From assembly GCA_018660415.1 (NCBI GenBank), contig JABJKG010000002.1, positions 1 through 64,000 on the forward strand: 64,000 nucleotides of DNA. The letters are read 5' to 3'. The notes under the pieces are model-generated. The model ran no database searches. It was not told where the DNA came from and saw nothing but the letters and a program-made list of their open reading frames with translations. Both the position numbers and the translations under genes were made by a program. Positions 15,197 to 49,997 of the stretch are shown here, piece after piece; the first letter of the stretch is position 1; each line of letters begins with the position of its first letter. Source of the stretch: a bacterium. GTDB taxonomy: Bacteria > Babelota > Babeliae > Babelales > UBA12409.

Positions 15197-16138
15197 TTAA
15201 CCTGGCAACATGTTATATGCTTTATAGCCAAGTTTGGCGGTATGTTTTGCACCAAAACGTAAGGGCCATGTCCATCGCGATGTTAATGCCCACTCGATTC
15301 CGTTTAGGAATCTAACCTTAAGTTTTAAGAGAGTTCGTAATCCATTAATGCGATTTATATACTCCTGGGTAGACTGCAGTTCTTTTTCCAGCTTGTGCAT
15401 AGCTTCAGAGTTACTTTTATCGGTGTGTTCTATTTTGAATTGTATAGCTTCTATATTTTTTTGTTGTACTTGCGATAGTAAGGTTAGCTGCTCGCTCAGT
15501 AGTTCGTTAATTTCGAAGATAAAGTTTCTCATGCCACTATATCCCTGATTTATATTTACATTTACCATTGAAGGATTGTGGAGTGTTTCTGCGTATCTAA
15601 ATAACGTATCGCTCATGATTTCGGTAGCCATAAGGTTGGCCAGTTCTTTTTGTCGTTCTGGTGAAAGATTTACTTCAAGAAATTCAAACGACTCCATAAT
15701 TAAATTACTCAGTATGCTTTGTTGTTCTTTAGCCGATGTAGATACTCTTTGTAACAGTTCATTCAAGTCGGATCCTAGATAAGAGGTTATAGCCTCTGCG
15801 CCACTAGTAAACATATTGTTTTTTACTTTTAAACTAGCACTAAGCAAATGGGCAATCCATTCTTCAGTAATGATTTCAGCTTGAGTTTTAATATCGCTGA
15901 AATCTACACAATCAATATCATTGCAATGAGCTCTAAATGCACTAAGGGTAGCCTTTTCAATGATTTCATGAACCACGTCACTTTCTTCATCACTATCTAG
16001 ATCCAAAACAGGTCCTTCAATAGGATCAAAAAATTCTTCAACAGTTTCTTCTACAATCTCATCTGGTCCACCAGCATAAAGGCCAGATATTACACTAAGG
16101 CCCAGTAGGAGATAAAAAAGTGTTTTTTTGTTCTTCAT
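15197..16138 (-). CDS. Exported helical protein, tandem paralogue A
   Basis: 313 residues with a signal peptide (~1-22). An acidic stretch follows (~25-55), then a long helical domain with conserved blocks shared with the next gene: MATEIMSDTLFRYAETL, INQGYSGMRNFIFEIN, LLSQVQQKNIEAIQFKI and a C-terminal RWTWPLRFGAKHTAKL. Coiled-coil-like heptads occur around 200-265. No enzyme motif is seen. Gene plus terminator appears to be a tandem duplicate of 16268-17179. Probably a periplasmic or secreted structural or host-directed protein; function unknown. Confidence 0.75.
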   Translation of the reverse strand: MKNKKTLFYLLLGLSVISGLYAGGPDEIVEETVEEFFDPIEGPVLDLDSDEESDVVHEIIEKATLSAFRAHCNDIDCVDFSDIKTQAEIITEEWIAHLLSASLKVKNNMFTSGAEAITSYLGSDLNELLQRVSTSAKEQQSILSNLIMESFEFLEVNLSPERQKELANLMATEIMSDTLFRYAETLHNPSMVNVNINQGYSGMRNFIFEINELLSEQLTLLSQVQQKNIEAIQFKIEHTDKSNSEAMHKLEKELQSTQEYINRINGLRTLLKLKVRFLNGIEWALTSRWTWPLRFGAKHTAKLGYKAYNMLPG

Positions 16139-16267: not shown

Positions 16268-17179
16268 TTAAGCTACTAGCTTGTAGCCTCTATAGGCAAG
16301 CTTAGCAGAGTTTTTGGCTGCAAAGCGGAATGCCCAGGTCCAACGGGAATTAGCTGCCCAGTCAATACCGCTCAAGAGGTTTACCTTGATTGACAATATC
16401 GTACGAATTGAATCAATGTAGTCCTTGTATTCTTGAGTGGCTTCAAGTGCATCCTCGAGCTTTTTCACTGAAAGTGGGTATTCAGCATTAACAGACCTTA
16501 ATTTTACTTTAATATTTTTTATATTTTGAGCTTGCACGAGAGATATTAAAGTAAACTGATTGTTTAATTTGTTTATTTCTTTAATAAGATTTTGCATGCC
16601 TTTATAGCCTTCATGCATTGCGATATCGATTACTGAAGGACCCTGCAGGCTTTTTGAATATCTGTAGAGTGTTTCAGTAATGATTTCGGTAGCCATTAAT
16701 GCAGCAAGTTCCTCTTTTTTTTCTGTAGTTAAAAGGACCTCGGCAGCATCTAACGATTCAATAATAATATCCTGTAGGACTTTATTTTGTTCTTGGGCAG
16801 ACTCAGAAATTTTTTGAGGCAACATAGTTAAGTTGGCACCCATATACACAGCAATAGACTGAGCCCCATTGTCATCAATTATTTTTTTAACACCTAATCC
16901 AGCGCTTAAAAGGTGTCCAATCCACATTTCAGCAATAATTTCTGATTCTTGGAAAGCAAAATCTTCACAGCTGATTTCCTCACTGTGGGCGTTGAGAGTA
17001 TTAGTTACAGCTAGCTGAATAAAATCACTGATTGACTGACTTTCTTCAGAGGCTGTGTCGTTGGTATTACTTATAGTAGCCTCAATAGCAACAGCCGTAC
17101 TTCCCGGCGTGTTAGCAAACAGGCCAGATACGGTACAGAGTGCGAGCAAAAGGCTCCAGAGTATCTTTTTGTTTTTCAT
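16268..17179 (-). CDS. Exported helical protein, tandem paralogue B
   Basis: 303 residues from the ATG at 17179, chosen because AAAGG lies 7 nt upstream and because the N-terminus (MKNKKILWSLLLAL) then matches paralogue A (MKNKKTLFYLLLGL). The signal peptide ends near residue 22. Shared blocks include MATEIITETLYRYSKSL, HEGYKGMQNLIKEIN and RWTWAFRFAAKNSAKLAYRGY. It is helical with likely coiled-coil segments. Function unknown; the pair has diverged substantially, so the duplication is not recent. Confidence 0.78.
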   Translation of the reverse strand: MKNKKILWSLLLALCTVSGLFANTPGSTAVAIEATISNTNDTASEESQSISDFIQLAVTNTLNAHSEEISCEDFAFQESEIIAEMWIGHLLSAGLGVKKIIDDNGAQSIAVYMGANLTMLPQKISESAQEQNKVLQDIIIESLDAAEVLLTTEKKEELAALMATEIITETLYRYSKSLQGPSVIDIAMHEGYKGMQNLIKEINKLNNQFTLISLVQAQNIKNIKVKLRSVNAEYPLSVKKLEDALEATQEYKDYIDSIRTILSIKVNLLSGIDWAANSRWTWAFRFAAKNSAKLAYRGYKLVA

Positions 17180-17242
17180 AATAATACCTTTCAGTTTGAC
17201 ATTTATTGTATAGTATTTAGGTAAAAAGGTCAAAAGGGTACG

Positions 17243-38973: not shown

Positions 38974-39732
38974 ATGGCAACGATTAAAAAACAATACGGA
39001 CAACACTTTTTAAGAGACAGTTCTTACTTACAAACCGTGTTTGACTCTGTGCATTTATCTCCAGAATCATCAGTGTTTGAGATTGGTGGAGGTGATGGTT
39101 TTTTAACGCGTGCTATTTTAGATTTTGATATTAAGCGCTTATGGGTATTTGAAATCGATGAAGAGTGGGCCGTAGAGTTGCGGAAAATTCAGGATGATCG
39201 ATTAACGGTCTTGTTGGAAAATATCTTGGATGCTGATTTAAGTAAGATGGAGCAAGATAAGCCGTGGACCCTTATTGCTAACTTGCCGTATAATATAACG
39301 TTTCCTATTTTACGGTTATTGCATGCACATCGGGGAATGTTGACTGAAGGCGTTATCATGATTCAGGAGGAAGTTGCGCAAAAGATTCTAGCGTCTCGGG
39401 GTCGTGGCTATGGTTATGTTTCATTGTTTTTTCAGTGGTATTTTGATTGGAAACAATTAGATAAGGTTCCTCCAACAGCTTTTTATCCTCCACCAAAAGT
39501 ATTTTCTCGCTTTCTATATTTTAAGCCTAAGAAGGATCTTCCTAAGATTTCTGATGAGGAGAAGTTTTGGAGATTTATTAAAGTTTGTTTTAAGCAGCCT
39601 AGACGGACACTTAATAACAATTTAAGTGGTACTCATTACTTATCTCATCTAAGTTCAGATCAGCTTAAGTTACGAGCGCAGCAGTTGACTATGCAGGAGT
39701 TGCTAGAGCTTTGGAACAAGATTAATAGTTAG
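38974..39732 (+). CDS. rsmA: 16S rRNA adenine dimethyltransferase RsmA (KsgA)
   Basis: 252 residues. SAM-binding motif VFEIGGGDGFLTRAIL, acidic loop FEIDEEWA and catalytic motif NLPYNITFPIL are present, plus the N-terminal QHFLRD signature. It dimethylates the two adjacent adenines in helix 45 of 16S rRNA during small-subunit assembly. It follows mreB by 13 bp and overlaps the convergent lipase-like gene by 4 bp at its end. Confidence 0.96.
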   Translation: MATIKKQYGQHFLRDSSYLQTVFDSVHLSPESSVFEIGGGDGFLTRAILDFDIKRLWVFEIDEEWAVELRKIQDDRLTVLLENILDADLSKMEQDKPWTLIANLPYNITFPILRLLHAHRGMLTEGVIMIQEEVAQKILASRGRGYGYVSLFFQWYFDWKQLDKVPPTAFYPPPKVFSRFLYFKPKKDLPKISDEEKFWRFIKVCFKQPRRTLNNNLSGTHYLSHLSSDQLKLRAQQLTMQELLELWNKINS

Positions 39733-40937
39733 ACAAGCAGTTTAATGGATTTACTATATTTTTGATTATACTCATCGGAGTAGTTGTTAGGAATACAGTC
39801 TTGTACGTTTCCCATAAATTTAGAGATAAGGTTCCCGGGCATCAATGCTTGAAACATCGTTTCAGGGTCGCGCTGTTCAAAGCCAATCATACCGTTGTTT
39901 AATGTGATATCGATGGTCACATTTTTATGCTGACTTTTATCTGCTGTTGTTGTGATCATTGGAAGGAACGCTCCTACTGGAACTGGGTTGAGTGGGCAAC
40001 TGTTTTGCTCAAACTTATACTGTCCCCATGCGAAGAACCAAAGGTGGCTATGAGTAGGTTCAGTAATTATTGCTTTAGAGCGATTAGTTGGTTTATTGAA
40101 TTTGGTTTCTACTACGCGAATACGAATTTGTTTTAATTTAGTAGGTAGTTTATTTTTTTTGCTTCGGATAAACTTTCGGACAGGTAGTGAATCGGTAGAA
40201 AACCAGTCCATTATTTGAACATTATCTTTTTCTGAGTAAATATTATAAATCTTTTTAAAAATTGAGTTATGAATGCTTCTATAAGCCCCCTTTTGAATAG
40301 GTGTGCCGAGTAGAATGAGTTCATCAATAATAGGACGCTTGCGGGGGGAATGAGTTGCTAGGTGTGCCAGGTTGAGGCATACGTTTCCACCATGGCTATA
40401 TCCAACAAGAGTGATTCGTGTTTGTATACCGAGGTTCTTAAAATATTCGACTTCTTTTTGTAAGGACTTATAGAGTTTTTCTGCTCCTCTAAGGCGTGCA
40501 GATTTACTGAGTGTTCCTGTCCATCCAAAGGTATAATAATTATTATTGGTTGCAGCGCCTTCTTTAGCTTGTTGGGCGACCATATCATATATATGAGAAA
40601 AAAGGCATTTAGCGCTTCCATACTCAAAGTTATTGATATCAACAGGGATTAGTCCAAGCTGGTCAATAGCCTGTGATTGAAAGAAAAAGGGGTCATTGCG
40701 CATAAACTCTGTTTTTTTGTCATAACCAGAGTTATCAAGGGTATTACGTAATACCTTAAGCGCTTGACCCGTTGTACGTGGTGAGTTAACTGTTCCATGA
40801 ACAAAAACAACGATATTTTGCTCAGTTTGATGATTTTTTTTAGGGATATAGAAATTCTCTTTATGCAGCAAAACACGCACCTGACTGACTGATGCAAGCG
40901 CTATGACGAATAATAATGCCTTTTTAGCTGTAATCAT
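39729..40937 (-). CDS. Exported lipase-like alpha/beta hydrolase, paralogue 1
   Basis: 402 residues with a signal-like N-terminus. Hydrolase features: oxyanion strand VVFVHGTVNSP (~43-52), nucleophile elbow GYSHGG (Ser181), a likely acid in SEKDNVQ after the next strand, and a candidate His in SHLWFFAWG. Blocks NDPFFFQSQAI, YYTFGWTG and ELILLGTPIQ are shared with the paralogue at 42007-43239. Probably an exported esterase or lipase, possibly aimed at host lipids. It converges on rsmA with a 4-bp overlap. Substrate unknown. Confidence 0.75.
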   Translation of the reverse strand: MITAKKALLFVIALASVSQVRVLLHKENFYIPKKNHQTEQNIVVFVHGTVNSPRTTGQALKVLRNTLDNSGYDKKTEFMRNDPFFFQSQAIDQLGLIPVDINNFEYGSAKCLFSHIYDMVAQQAKEGAATNNNYYTFGWTGTLSKSARLRGAEKLYKSLQKEVEYFKNLGIQTRITLVGYSHGGNVCLNLAHLATHSPRKRPIIDELILLGTPIQKGAYRSIHNSIFKKIYNIYSEKDNVQIMDWFSTDSLPVRKFIRSKKNKLPTKLKQIRIRVVETKFNKPTNRSKAIITEPTHSHLWFFAWGQYKFEQNSCPLNPVPVGAFLPMITTTADKSQHKNVTIDITLNNGMIGFEQRDPETMFQALMPGNLISKFMGNVQDCIPNNYSDEYNQKYSKSIKLLV

Positions 40938-42006: not shown

Positions 42007-43239
42007 TTATTTACCCAGTCTTAACTGCTTGCGTGCTTTTTTAATGAGATTATTAAAACGAGTACGATAAGTACGCTTAAAATTTTGTGGTGAATAGGCA
42101 CGGACCTTTTTTTGTAACCAGTGAATATCACTATTGGTCATTGAGTTAGTAATTTTAGAGGTCTTATTGTTTTTATCATCATAACTAACTACCATGGTCT
42201 GTCCTATCTTAGGTGCCATTTCAATTGTCATGGTATTGGTTGTTCCTAACTCGTTAATTGTTTTAAGAATAAATGGCGTGAATACGGCTACTGGGAATGG
42301 GCGCAGAGGAAAGTGTGGACGATACCATTTATCAGTCCAGCCAAAAAACCACATTTCTATATGCCCAGGATAAATTCTTTTTTTTGTTTTTTCAGCATAC
42401 TCTTTACCTAACCTATACGTGGTTTTTCTGCGATTAAACCGAAGGCGAATTTGTTTAAGATTGCTTGGTAATTCTTGATGCTCTGGAGACATGCTTTTTG
42501 CTTCAAACACGCGTCCGGTCTCTCTTCCTGTTATAAAGTCTAGCTTTTGAATTCTATCGCCCAATGAATAAAAATTATAAATGTTTTTAAACGTTGGAGA
42601 CATCATCCCGTTATAACTTTCTTCTTGGATTGGGGTACCATATAAAATAAGGTCATCAATTGCAAAGGGTGGATTTTTAGAGTCCATATGATCGGGAAGT
42701 TCTAAGCAGACATTGCCACCGTGGCTAAACCCACACAAGGTGATGTGAATTGGTCCATCGGAGAATGTTCTTAGTTTTTTAATTTCTTTCAATAACTCTT
42801 CATACAGTTGTTTTGATGCATCCTGGCGAACTTTTTCGTTTAATAATCCCGACCATCCGAATGTATAATAACGATTGAGTTTTCTTTCTGGAAAACACTT
42901 TTTGTTTAATATGTGAAATGTTTTTCCAAACGCTTGTGCCGCATTACCATGGTGAGCCCGCGCAAAATGGATGGGCTGTAACCCGAACCCTTGGATAGGT
43001 TGAGACTGATAAAAAAAAGGATTTTTTCGATATAGTTTATTAATACGAGTGAGCATGGTCGGTTGTAAGGTTTTATTTTTTAACTTTAATACATCAAACA
43101 GACTGACATAGGGCATCACGGTCCCATGAACGATTATTGTCATCCATTGCTTGGTGTGGTTAACAACCTTTGTTTGTGGTTCTACTCCACAGAAAGAACC
43201 TAAAAGTAAGAATAATAATATTTTTTCTTTACTGCTCAT
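42007..43239 (-). CDS. Exported lipase-like alpha/beta hydrolase, paralogue 2
   Basis: 410 residues with a signal-like N-terminus. It has the same layout as 39729-40937: IIVHGTVMP, KNPFFYQSQPI, YYTFGWSG, nucleophile elbow GFSHGG (Ser172), DLILYGTPIQEE, an Asp in YSLGDRIQ, and a candidate His in GHIEMWFFGW. The C-terminal ~60 residues are basic. It is probably an exported esterase or lipase. It abuts the sppA stop on the other strand by a single base. The pair presumably arose by local duplication around sppA. Confidence 0.75.
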   Translation of the reverse strand: MSSKEKILLFLLLGSFCGVEPQTKVVNHTKQWMTIIVHGTVMPYVSLFDVLKLKNKTLQPTMLTRINKLYRKNPFFYQSQPIQGFGLQPIHFARAHHGNAAQAFGKTFHILNKKCFPERKLNRYYTFGWSGLLNEKVRQDASKQLYEELLKEIKKLRTFSDGPIHITLCGFSHGGNVCLELPDHMDSKNPPFAIDDLILYGTPIQEESYNGMMSPTFKNIYNFYSLGDRIQKLDFITGRETGRVFEAKSMSPEHQELPSNLKQIRLRFNRRKTTYRLGKEYAEKTKKRIYPGHIEMWFFGWTDKWYRPHFPLRPFPVAVFTPFILKTINELGTTNTMTIEMAPKIGQTMVVSYDDKNNKTSKITNSMTNSDIHWLQKKVRAYSPQNFKRTYRTRFNNLIKKARKQLRLGK

Positions 43240-46222: not shown

Positions 46223-47017
46223 GTGGTTACTAAAAGTGTTAAAGCATTATCATTGGTATTGTTATTAAGTTCTGCAGCTGGAAATTCATATGCAGATGTT
46301 CAAGAAGTAGTAGCTGAAGAAGTTGCTCAAGAAGGGGCAGATCAAGAAATGGCTGTTATAGAGCAGGAAGAAGATGCTACCAAACATGCAGATGTTCAAG
46401 AAGTAGTAGCTGAAGAAGTTGCAAAACCTCAGCTTGAATTAACCTATGCTAATATTGATGAGCTTTGTAAGTCTAAGAGTTTAATCTGTGTCCTTTCATG
46501 GGCAAAGAATGAAGAAACTGATGCTGCGGCATGGGAAAAACATTTAGAAGCGGTTTTTGAAACAGCACAAACAAACCCATATCCTCATTTTTCAGAGGCT
46601 CTCAACCTTGTTGATGTAGCAGATGCATCAATTGCTCATACTGGACAACTTTCCTTGTGTGAAGAAGAATTAGAACAAGATGAAGCTATTAAACGTACCA
46701 ATAGAAGTGAAATTGATTTTGTTAAAATTGCAGAAGATAATGACCGTGTTCAATTTTCAATCAAAGTAAACGCTGCTTACTATCAGCCAGAAGATTGGAA
46801 ACGCATCATTGGCCGCCTTATCGAGTTTTCCGATAAGAAAAATGCTAATGCTGATGACGAGTCATTAACTGTTAACTACTTGTTAGAATCTCTCAACGAG
46901 GTTGATCGCAAGCCAGTTGAAGAATCTGCTCAAGAATGTTTAGAATGTGTAGATTGTAAGTGTGAAGAAGCTTGTGCTGATGATTGTGAATGTGCAATTG
47001 AAGAAGTACAAGACTAA
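46223..47017 (+). CDS. Exported acidic protein with Cys-rich C-terminal tail
   Basis: 264 residues, GTG start, signal peptide (~1-24, ending SYA). The mature N-terminus carries two identical 12-residue units (ADVQEVVAEEVA). A central domain (~70-225) is helical and acidic. The last ~30 residues are Cys-rich with spacing C-x2-C-x2-C-x-C-x3-C-x3-C-x-C among Asp/Glu. The tail could bind metal or form disulfides; the nearby copper pump makes metal binding attractive but this is inference. It has its own consensus promoter and a strong terminator, suggesting high expression. Confidence 0.75.
   Translation: MVTKSVKALSLVLLLSSAAGNSYADVQEVVAEEVAQEGADQEMAVIEQEEDATKHADVQEVVAEEVAKPQLELTYANIDELCKSKSLICVLSWAKNEETDAAAWEKHLEAVFETAQTNPYPHFSEALNLVDVADASIAHTGQLSLCEEELEQDEAIKRTNRSEIDFVKIAEDNDRVQFSIKVNAAYYQPEDWKRIIGRLIEFSDKKNANADDESLTVNYLLESLNEVDRKPVEESAQECLECVDCKCEEACADDCECAIEEVQD
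46290..46422 (+). repeat. 37-bp perfect direct repeat within the coding region
   Basis: The 37-bp sequence at 46290-46326 recurs identically at 46386-46422, offset by 96 bp and in frame. It encodes the duplicated ADVQEVVAEEVA unit. Perfect identity at third codon positions suggests a recent duplication or ongoing copy-number change. Confidence 0.85.
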
Positions 47018-47038: not shown

Positions 47039-47076
47039 AGAGAGCTCGGTGGAAAAACCGAGCTCTCTTTTTTTTA
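47039..47076 (+). terminator. Strong intrinsic terminator
   Basis: A 12-bp perfect stem (AGAGAGCTCGGT / ACCGAGCTCTCT) with a 6-nt loop is followed by a run of eight or more T residues on the plus strand. It ends the Cys-tailed protein gene and reaches the end of the convergent gene at 47074. Confidence 0.95.
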
Positions 47077-47724
47077 TTTCTTTTTTTTCGTAGGTTTCTT
47101 TTTGCTTTTTTTCTTGTTTAATAAGTGTTCTTTTAATATGTGTAAGTCCTGTTTATTGCAGGTACTCAAGTCACCCGAAAAGGTTGTAATATTGAGGTCT
47201 TTAGATGTATGTACTTTAGTTATGCCATGTGTATTGATATAAAGCTTACATGACTTAGGAAAATTTCTGATAAAAAAGCAAAGCTGAATTCGATTTTTGT
47301 CAGTATTAAAATAACTTACTCCATGCTTTATAGCGTCGGGTTGTTTCCATCCATCCAAAATAATAGAGTCTCCTGTTTGAAGGCTGTTTTTTATACCTTT
47401 AAGGGATATGTTGGTTGTATTACTTTTATGTACTTTTTTAGGATGGCCGTAGAGGACAAAGTTATTAGGTGAAACAGCCTTAGATAATTCTTTAAGTTTG
47501 CCATTTCTGAGACGATAGACATTAAAAAGGTAACCACCAACACTTTCAGGGTCTAATATAACTTTAGAACATGTGGCCACTCCCTTCTTATCTTGTAAAG
47601 AAAAAGAATCGACTGGTTGTCCTTTTGTTTGGGACATACTTGAAGCAAACCCGGTGGAAAAAGAATCCGGCTGGAGCTGTATGCTCAACAATGACAGTAG
47701 GATGAATATTTTAAATTTTTTCAT
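47074..47724 (-). CDS. Exported protein with Lys-rich C-terminus, unknown
   Basis: 216 residues with a signal peptide (~1-18). The central part looks beta-rich with three Cys (CSKV, QLCFF, SCKLY). The last 15 residues are almost all Lys, Ser and Pro (LNKKKSKKKPTKKKK), giving a strongly basic tail that could contact nucleic acid or negatively charged envelope polymers. GGGGA precedes the ATG. No family recognised. Converges on the terminator of the gene at 46223. Confidence 0.65.
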   Translation of the reverse strand: MKKFKIFILLSLLSIQLQPDSFSTGFASSMSQTKGQPVDSFSLQDKKGVATCSKVILDPESVGGYLFNVYRLRNGKLKELSKAVSPNNFVLYGHPKKVHKSNTTNISLKGIKNSLQTGDSIILDGWKQPDAIKHGVSYFNTDKNRIQLCFFIRNFPKSCKLYINTHGITKVHTSKDLNITTFSGDLSTCNKQDLHILKEHLLNKKKSKKKPTKKKK

Positions 47725-47789: not shown

Positions 47790-48470
47790 TTATATTTGTT
47801 GGTTTATTTGTTTAGCAATACTGTTTTCATTAGAAAAGTGGATAGTATGCATTTGGAATGTGCGGGCTATTGATAGATTGGTAGGTTTATCATCAACAAA
47901 AATGATATGTTCTTGTTTAAGATCGAAGGTGTGAAGGAATTTTATAAAAGCTTTATGTTCTGGCTTGGCAATATAGTTATCGTCAGGTGTCGAACCTAGA
48001 ATTCCTTTAAAGAGTGATAAGACTTCAGGGAATTTTTGACCGATAATATCGAGAGAGTACTTTCCGATATTGGAAAAGATATAAAGATCATAGCCTTGTT
48101 TATGTAGTTTTTGGATCAGTTTGATGGTTGGCTTGATTGGTTGTAATGCATTGGCGACTTGAAGTGCGGCCTCCCGGTTGGGGCTGAGGAATGTAAATTT
48201 GTCCATCATGCTAAGAATAAACTGCTCGAGCACGGGTGTAGAGAACCATAACCGTGCGGCTGTATACAGAAAATATGGGTTGAAGCATAAGAGAAAGATG
48301 TTCTTTTTGGCAGGAGCTTTGAGAAACTCTTTGATGACTTGTCGTTTGTCGAGTTTAAAAAGAACACCATGTAGGTCAAAAACAAAAACAGGATCATCCA
48401 GCTTTTGTGCCGGTAGGCAGGTAGATGATCCTGTAATTTTACGTGTAAATAGATTTTTAAATAACATCAT
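47790..48470 (-). CDS. HAD-fold protein with DxH motif I, member 1
   Basis: 226 residues. HAD motifs: motif I VFDLHGVL (Asp32, with His34 where phosphatases have the acid/base Asp), motif II YIFSNIG, motif III Lys in AKPEHKAF, motif IV IIFVDDKPTN. A helical cap lies between motifs I and II. It lacks a clear signal peptide, unlike the two upstream paralogues. The ATG overlaps the stop of the next gene upstream by one base, so translation is coupled. With the second Asp replaced, standard phosphatase turnover may be altered. Confidence 0.82.
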   Translation of the reverse strand: MMLFKNLFTRKITGSSTCLPAQKLDDPVFVFDLHGVLFKLDKRQVIKEFLKAPAKKNIFLLCFNPYFLYTAARLWFSTPVLEQFILSMMDKFTFLSPNREAALQVANALQPIKPTIKLIQKLHKQGYDLYIFSNIGKYSLDIIGQKFPEVLSLFKGILGSTPDDNYIAKPEHKAFIKFLHTFDLKQEHIIFVDDKPTNLSIARTFQMHTIHFSNENSIAKQINQQI

Positions 48471-49189
48471 TATTGGAGAATGCCAGCCTCGGTTAATACT
48501 TTTTCAGTTTGTTTTACTGTTTTAAATAGTATACCACAGATTCCAGCTTCCTCCCCAAGTTTGATATTCTTTTTTGTATCATCAACAAAAACATATCGTT
48601 GTGGAGTATGTCCTAATGCTTCAGCTCCAAGTTTTTTAACTTGCTCAAAAGCTTCAGGAGATTTTTTAGTTACGGTGCTTCCAACCTTGCGATACCATTT
48701 TTTATCAAAAAGACCAAACAGTTCGGGGTGCGCATTCTCTTGGAACTTCATAGTCGATTCTGGGGTGTTAGAAAAGAGGATAAGTTTATACCCTTCATTG
48801 TGCAGTTTTTTTACCAATGCTTCAGACTGAGGATCAATCCAGTATGCATTAACAAGCTCGAGGTTAGCTTTTTCATATGCTTCGCCTGGTTCTCCTGAAT
48901 CGAGGTACTCTAACAGGGAACTGTTTTTAATGCTTTTATCGTGTATCATCTTTCTTATACCATAAGAGGTGATACGGCTTAAGCGGCTGAATCGATCAGG
49001 ATTATCCCATAACAAGGTCTTGAGTCCTTTTGTCCAGTCTGTATACCCGAGCACGTTATGAAAGTCAAAGATGACGACCGTATTTTCTGGAGAGAAGTGT
49101 GATGGGAGATCGGTTAGGCAAGGCGATCGATCATCTTGTGCAAAGCAAAGGCTACTTATGAGCATTAGTGGTAATAAGATTCTTTTCAT
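48470..49189 (-). CDS. Exported HAD-fold protein with DxH motif I, member 2
   Basis: 239 residues with a signal peptide (~1-17, ending CFA). Motif I is IFDFHNVL (Asp42, His44), motif II LFSNTPES, motif III Lys in TKKSPEAF, motif IV YVFVDDTKKN. A helical cap carries the block NAYWIDPQSEALVKKL shared with its paralogues. Exported HAD enzymes are uncommon. AAAGGA precedes the ATG. It is the middle of a three-gene array with coupled or closely spaced frames, so the products may function together. Confidence 0.82.
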   Translation of the reverse strand: MKRILLPLMLISSLCFAQDDRSPCLTDLPSHFSPENTVVIFDFHNVLGYTDWTKGLKTLLWDNPDRFSRLSRITSYGIRKMIHDKSIKNSSLLEYLDSGEPGEAYEKANLELVNAYWIDPQSEALVKKLHNEGYKLILFSNTPESTMKFQENAHPELFGLFDKKWYRKVGSTVTKKSPEAFEQVKKLGAEALGHTPQRYVFVDDTKKNIKLGEEAGICGILFKTVKQTEKVLTEAGILQ

Positions 49190-49208
49190 ACTCTTCCTTT
49201 TCTTTTTC

Positions 49209-49997
49209 TTATAAAATCTTCAACTTACGTAATACCTTTTCAGCTTGTGTTGCCGTTGTAAATATAATACTACATATTCCAGCCTTATACGCTTCCTTAG
49301 CATTAGCTTTCTTGTCATCTAAGAATAAATAGTGCTCTGGGGCCTTACCTAGCTTCTTGGTTACAAACTCTTTCATGTCGATATAGCGTTCGGCAGTGAG
49401 CTTGGATGCAAAATCGTTTTGTGGTGCACGGATATTGATTGCGTAAAACAACTTAAACAGCTCAGGCTGACGTTCTTTTTGTACAGCTAAGGTCTCAGGT
49501 AACATATCTGAAAAGAAGAAGAGCTTGTACCCTTTTTGTTTCAATTCTCTGAGAAGCTCGACGGTGTTGTGATCTAATTTGTATGAGTTAATGAGCTTGG
49601 TATTCGAGTCGAGGTATTTCTTGTTGGTACTATTTTTATTGAGATAGCGTTCTAAGATGCTTTCTTTATCATTTTTAAATCCTGAAACTTTTTTAAAGAG
49701 GTATGATACAAGGCGCATACTGACCTTGAACTTGTTGGGGTGCTTGCTAAAGTTGCTCCATGCTTCCTTCCAGTCCATCTGCGCGATAACGTAATGAAAG
49801 TCTACGAGGAATACTGTGTTATCCGGGGTGTATGAAACAGAGGTTGCCGGGCATTGGATTGAGCTGGTTTCAATAGAAGGGTGGTGGAAGGTTTCGGCTT
49901 TTGAAGGGAAAAAACGTCTTAGTTCTATCTGATGAATGGTAAAACCAAGCGCCAGGGTTAGGGCTATAAAAAGCCCAACCTTTTTCGCGATTGTCAT
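49209..49997 (-). CDS. Exported HAD-fold protein with DxH motif I, member 3
   Basis: 262 residues. An N-terminal hydrophobic segment (~7-24) is a signal peptide or anchor, followed by a ~40-residue linker. Motif I is LVDFHYVI (Asp66, His68), motif II FFFSDMLPE, a motif III Lys near YIDMKEF, and motif IV YLFLDDKKAN. The cap block NSYKLDHNTVELLREL matches member 2. Only the second motif I Asp is changed, to His, as in both neighbours. Substrate unknown; a periplasmic phosphotransfer or binding role is possible. Confidence 0.82.
   Translation of the reverse strand: MTIAKKVGLFIALTLALGFTIHQIELRRFFPSKAETFHHPSIETSSIQCPATSVSYTPDNTVFLVDFHYVIAQMDWKEAWSNFSKHPNKFKVSMRLVSYLFKKVSGFKNDKESILERYLNKNSTNKKYLDSNTKLINSYKLDHNTVELLRELKQKGYKLFFFSDMLPETLAVQKERQPELFKLFYAINIRAPQNDFASKLTAERYIDMKEFVTKKLGKAPEHYLFLDDKKANAKEAYKAGICSIIFTTATQAEKVLRKLKIL

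Follow-up and report, generated by a model that had tools for sequence, protein, structure and literature searches.

Three consecutive genes (P1 to P3) in a genome of the phylum Dependentiae encode proteins of the haloacid dehalogenase (HAD) superfamily whose motif I reads DxH, with histidine at the position (+2) usually held by a second aspartate. We consider it probable that they belong to a Dependentiae-specific clade of C1-capped HADs, close to YihX and to the phosphatase domain of soluble epoxide hydrolase (sEH), in which the +2 residue became His, and that its members are Mg-dependent phosphatases, mostly exported. This reading draws on sequence and prediction, namely the fold, the catalytic set, the conservation of the histidine, one main origin and a gene cluster shared with a DxD HAD. 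The window analyzed is the whole 64,000-nucleotide stretch at positions 1 to 64,000 of contig JABJKG010000002.1 (assembly GCA_018660415.1), from a genome of 1.08 Mb in 14 contigs that is 98% complete.

A four-gene HAD cluster with an altered motif I

Four HAD genes on the minus strand follow one another head to tail; in transcription order they are P4 (50023–50700, 225 aa), P3 (49209–49997, 262 aa), P2 (48470–49189, 239 aa) and P1 (47790–48470, 226 aa). Because the intergenic gaps are short (25 bases between P4 and P3, 19 bases between P3 and P2) and the P2 stop and P1 start share one base (TAATG), the genes look like a single operon with P4 as its first gene. The same four-gene set, in the same order, is found in a second genome of the genus (locus L005), and between the two genomes dN (0.29–0.48) lies well below dS, with synonymous sites saturated. 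The first-pass annotation had described three tandem, diverged HAD-fold paralogues at these coordinates, and this description holds: pairwise identity is 35% between P2 and P3, 23% between P1 and P3 and 24% between P1 and P2.

Counting from the ORF start at 48470, the P1 motif I (D32-L33-H34-G35) is encoded at 48366–48377 on the minus strand (codons GACCTACAT). Its DxH codons are GAC-CTA-CAT, and those of P2 and P3 are both GAC-TTT-CAT, so that the D-L-H, D-F-H and D-F-H triplets begin at residues 32, 42 and 66, exactly as first annotated. In context, the motif is FDLHG in P1 (residues 31–35), FDFHN in P2 and VDFHY in P3. The remaining motifs, claimed to be intact, are so in all three proteins: motif II reads FSN, FSN and FSD in P1, P2 and P3, the motif III lysine is present as K169 of P1 and its equivalents in P2 and P3, and motif IV reads VDDKPTN, VDDTKKN and LDDKKAN, with S133, K169 and D193-D194 completing the set in P1. 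Only the second Asp at +2, which is usual rather than universal in subfamily IA, is absent from all three. P4 keeps the normal motif attributed to it (FDMDGT) and is an ordinary HAD of the beta-phosphoglucomutase/hexitol-phosphatase kind; it falls in the beta-phosphoglucomutase-like branch, under every equivalog cutoff shown. A P-type ATPase identity for P1 to P3 was rejected, as DLHG, DFHN and DFHY stand in proteins of 226–262 aa versus DKTGT in a large membrane pump.

Fold and family placement

AlphaFold2 returned confident models for P1 (pLDDT 93.1) and for the part of P3 after residue 49 (pLDDT 93.9), each with a Rossmannoid core and a helical C1 cap; in P1, the cap is predicted as helices at 42–106 between strands 38–40 and 109–111, in the interval between motifs I and II. 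The models are HAD folds that show no collapse; a collapsed active site had been named in advance as speaking against the annotation. Given the core motifs and the predicted inserted helical cap, P1 to P3 are assigned to the HAD superfamily, subfamily IA (C1 cap). Absence of the +2 Asp does not exclude this membership, because it is equally missing from DxG phosphatases of the subfamily, YihX among them.

Profile comparisons place the proteins in the same neighborhood. All three exceed the cutoff of Pfam Hydrolase (PF00702), and P1 additionally that of HAD_2; against TIGR01509 (HAD-IA variant 3, cutoff 29.4 bits), P1 (38.9) and P2 (33.6) score above and P3 (22.4) below. More specific models are matched below their cutoffs: PRK09456, the YihX glucose-1-phosphatase equivalog (35.2, 28.4 and 14.3 bits for P1, P2 and P3 against 295 bits), TIGR02247 (25–29 bits for the three against 125 bits), the L-2-haloacid dehalogenase model TIGR01428 (27.0 bits for P1 against 125.4 bits, with P2 and P3 not listed) and DUF2608 (PF11019; 13.8 bits for P1 and 13.6 for P2 against 22.6 bits). 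The nearest solved structures are the sEH phosphatase domain (best fold match of P1), YihX (best fold match of P3) and the HAD domain of drimenol synthase, in agreement with the profile search.

YihX (HAD4, HAD-IA-v3) resembles P1 to P3 in its C1-type cap, motif II Ser, motif III Lys, motif IV DD and lack of a +2 Asp, and its equivalog model matches 63 of 70 aligned DxH members at E ≤ 1e-3; it differs in motif I, which reads DLGN (Gly at +2) rather than DxH. E. coli is not known to carry tandem exported copies of YihX. The sEH-like model TIGR02247 (HAD-1A3) matches 64 of the same 70 at this threshold, whereas the N-terminal sEH phosphatase domain itself is part of a two-domain protein and has the second Asp. 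Among solved structures, the profile search matched the drimenol synthase HAD domain (AsDMS) best (E 6e-22). This domain carries DLGD at motif I and has a dephosphorylating role (PMC9128629); unlike P1 to P3, it has Gly at +2 and is joined to a terpene synthase beta domain. DUF2608 proteins share HAD-type motifs and an exported appearance, are present in this genome and are weakly matched by five DxH members, but both copies here keep DxD.

The histidine is conserved across much of the phylum

To follow motif I in homologues, 101 genomes of the phylum were searched; 86 of them contain relatives of P1 and 66 contain relatives of P3. Proteins from the collected loci, which are the best-scoring ones rather than a complete census, were sorted by profile score into 107 DxH-type, 41 DxG-type and 21 P4-type sequences; the sorting profile was built from DxH sequences, but a single column hardly biases such sorting, and the tree described below, computed without motif I, agrees with it. 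Motif I is visible in 105 of the DxH-type set and reads DxH in 90, DxD in 12 and DxN in three, which is neither the ordinary DxD nor the random mix of residues that had been named as contrary outcomes. Such a frequency of DxH greatly exceeds chance. DxH rows occur in ten of 19 family-level groups (f1, f2, f3, f8, f9, f10, f11, f12, f14 and f19).

In an alignment of 70 DxH sequences with a mean column identity of 24%, D32, S133, K169 and D193 (P1 numbering) are invariant; H34 is constant in this alignment because its rows were selected as DxH. The conservation of H34 is better judged among the 105 members, where position 34 ranks 11 by entropy among scored columns, beside catalytic and core positions, while the adjoining position 33 varies within the clade. 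The histidine is conserved almost as strictly as the catalytic residues, which supports the original claim of selection and rules out decay.

At motif II, all 90 DxH members have Ser (90 of 90), and 9 of the 15 DxD or DxN members have Thr; this pattern would be expected if the +2 side chain lay near motif II, although with relatedness taken into account the three supported independent pairs are too few changes to make the coupling significant or to prove it. Furthermore, the motif III Lys is preceded in most DxH members by an insertion, usually of two residues (DNYIAKP versus G--xxKP in DxG relatives). As the insertion is absent from all 27 outside rows and from nearly all DxG-type rows, the alignments mark it as a second derived trait of the DxH clade.

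Origin and phylogenetic range of the DxH variant

The annotation had framed the motif as a change from DxD to DxH, a polarity that proved wrong. The nearest relatives outside the phylum are mostly DxG enzymes of the YihX/HAD-IA-v3 type: among 28 of them (drawn from ~176 genomes sampled across the domain), most carry G at +2, typically in FDLGNV, a few carry D, Y or F, and none has DxH. In a tree rooted with P4-type DxD enzymes and built with the motif I columns left out, one clade of 81 rows, 72 of them DxH, is recovered with an SH-aLRT of 93, nested inside DxG lineages; with motif I included, a 99/87 split separates the DxH-type and DxG-type sides. Parsimony gives G or G/H as the state before the DxH clade. 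From these sequence relationships, DxH most likely arose from DxG, not DxD, with one main origin within DxG-type relatives, and the rooted tree rules out a direct D-to-H change.

Inside the clade, His has changed to Asp in at least two places, often in a tandem neighbor of a DxH gene, so the histidine is not indispensable. The DxD members concerned include L008:2085-2837, L032:2316-3032, L098:1505-2230, L097:1505-2200 and L088; several adjoin a DxH paralogue, in more than half Thr replaces Ser at motif II, and as natural replacements of His by Asp they offer pairs for comparison. Within the DxG-type clade of Dependentiae, the +2 residue varies loosely (G, N, D, V, T, S or R). A lone DxH (FDIHNVL) occurs in that clade at L171:1447-2232 in group f15, without the motif III insertion; judged by its long branch, it is an apparently independent and possibly convergent case.

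To delimit the range of the variant, 84,980 species were scanned for the pattern [VA]FD[LI]HGV[LIV]F combined with homology to the family (13-row alignment). Nine loci were returned, and those with informative titles all belong to TM6/Dependentiae/Babeliales MAGs. Viral contigs contained matches to the pattern, none of them a relative, and plasmid and phage searches gave weak generic HADs only. The best reading of these searches is that the DxH variant is restricted to Dependentiae/TM6. We found no description of the clade in the open-access literature searched. The DxH clade is thus a real, well conserved variant inside a known superfamily, in a subfamily already known to vary at +2.

Export and gene neighborhood

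Two of the three proteins had been annotated as exported, which is plausible, and export or anchoring is typical of the family as judged from N-terminal sequence. P2 begins with a typical Sec signal peptide (MKRILLPLMLISSLCFA followed by QDD), P3 begins with MTIAKK and then a hydrophobic stretch in which no cleavage site stands out, consistent with a signal anchor or signal peptide, and P1 has no export signal by sequence reading or hydrophobicity scan. Across 104 family members, a hydrophobicity scan (rather than a trained signal-peptide predictor) called the N-terminal hydrophobic segment before the HAD domain strong in 69, weaker in 14 and absent in 21, and called a strong segment in 0 of 18 P4-type controls. 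Most DxH-type members thus appear to act outside the cytoplasm, exported or anchored. Export and DxH are separate traits, and export alone does not explain the histidine, because exported-looking DUF2608 HADs on other contigs of this genome (L220:1087-1848 and L222:835-1845) keep DxD (LDIDNT and FDLDLT).

The association with P4 is also conserved. Of 43 genomes with both gene types, 22 have a P4-type gene no more than 2.5 kb from a DxH gene; the two share a strand in every case, and in 21 the P4-type gene is the upstream one. This conserved gene cluster suggests linked substrates.

Other exported-looking proteins are encoded in the window. Beside the HAD operon lie two with no Pfam match (47074–47724 and 46223–47017). 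Farther away, exported-looking paralogues resembling alpha/beta hydrolases (39729–40937 and 42007–43239, minus strand; GYSHGGN and GFSHGGN) flank a signal peptide peptidase-like gene, and similar exported-looking proteins with no family assigned stand in tandem at 15197–16138 and 16268–17233.

Proposed mechanism and alternative readings

We propose that the DxH proteins hydrolyze phosphate esters by a Mg-dependent route via a phospho-aspartate. D32 (P1 numbering) would attack the phosphate, S133 and K169 would hold it, and Mg would be bound by D193 and the backbone carbonyl of H34. The role of general acid/base falls in canonical HADs to the second Asp (PMC8069645), which in cN-IIIB holds the attacking water jointly with the motif II Ser (PMC3946280). 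The His imidazole would replace that Asp, protonating the leaving group and activating water, and we regard His as probably the acid/base of the clade. P2, P3 and most relatives would work in the periplasm or at the membrane, and P1 and P4 inside the cytoplasm, perhaps on related substrates. The cultured Dependentiae bacterium Chromulinavorax combines a minimal metabolism with secreted hydrolases, including HADs, thought to process host material (PMC6561590); as a guess from lifestyle, exported DxH members may strip phosphate from host-derived metabolites for uptake.

Phosphatase chemistry is the default for these proteins because YihX, although it lacks the second Asp, specifically dephosphorylates alpha-D-glucose 1-phosphate (PMC4251788). 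Different chemistry does not, therefore, follow from a changed +2 residue, and the suggestion in the first-pass annotation, by analogy with P-type ATPases and dehalogenases, that it would is not supported, the Mg and Lys motifs being intact here. A bolder reading makes the clade the phylum's own class of HADs, using a His acid/base outside the cytoplasm for a new activity absent from DxG and DxD relatives; this activity might be phosphotransfer, or a hydrolysis adapted to the substrates and pH that the host compartment offers. We give this reading a small but real chance.

Changing the acid/base residue is known to shift the fate of the phospho-enzyme in HADs, as in P-type ATPases and phosphomutases, and this raises the alternative that His serves phosphoryl transfer, with a long-lived phospho-aspartate passing its phosphate to a second substrate in phosphotransferases or mutases. 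We hold this unlikely: the conserved neighbor P4 does lie in the beta-phosphoglucomutase-like branch, but YihX, the nearest characterized relative that lacks the second Asp, works as a hydrolase (PMC4251788), His can itself act competently as a general base, and a second conserved substrate-binding signature was not identified.

If the +2 residue has no strict role in the YihX-like family, as its looseness in the DxG-type clade of Dependentiae would allow, His could be a lineage marker of little importance, fixed by descent. Drift, however, would not hold one position at such divergence while its neighbor varies, and we find this account rather improbable. Export and tandem paralogue expansion would suit binding proteins, pseudo-enzymes whose retained pocket would bind a phosphorylated ligand with no turnover, but such proteins would be expected to lose some of the catalytic residues that stay invariant in 70 diverged sequences, and we accord this explanation slim odds. 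Dehalogenation or another carbon-centered hydrolysis is highly improbable: haloacid dehalogenases are among the weaker sequence and fold matches and also lack the second Asp, but they work without Mg, whereas the Mg site of motif IV (DDxxxN) is kept here (D193 invariant, D194 in 90%) and the closest matches are phosphatases.

Significance

Motif I defines one of the largest enzyme superfamilies, and what becomes of the phospho-enzyme is taken to depend on its +2 residue. By keeping His at this position almost as strictly as the catalytic residues, the DxH clade provides a natural experiment on that rule. The family is multi-copy and mostly exported, in a little-known phylum of intracellular protist parasites, and it is a candidate for how Dependentiae process host phosphometabolites.
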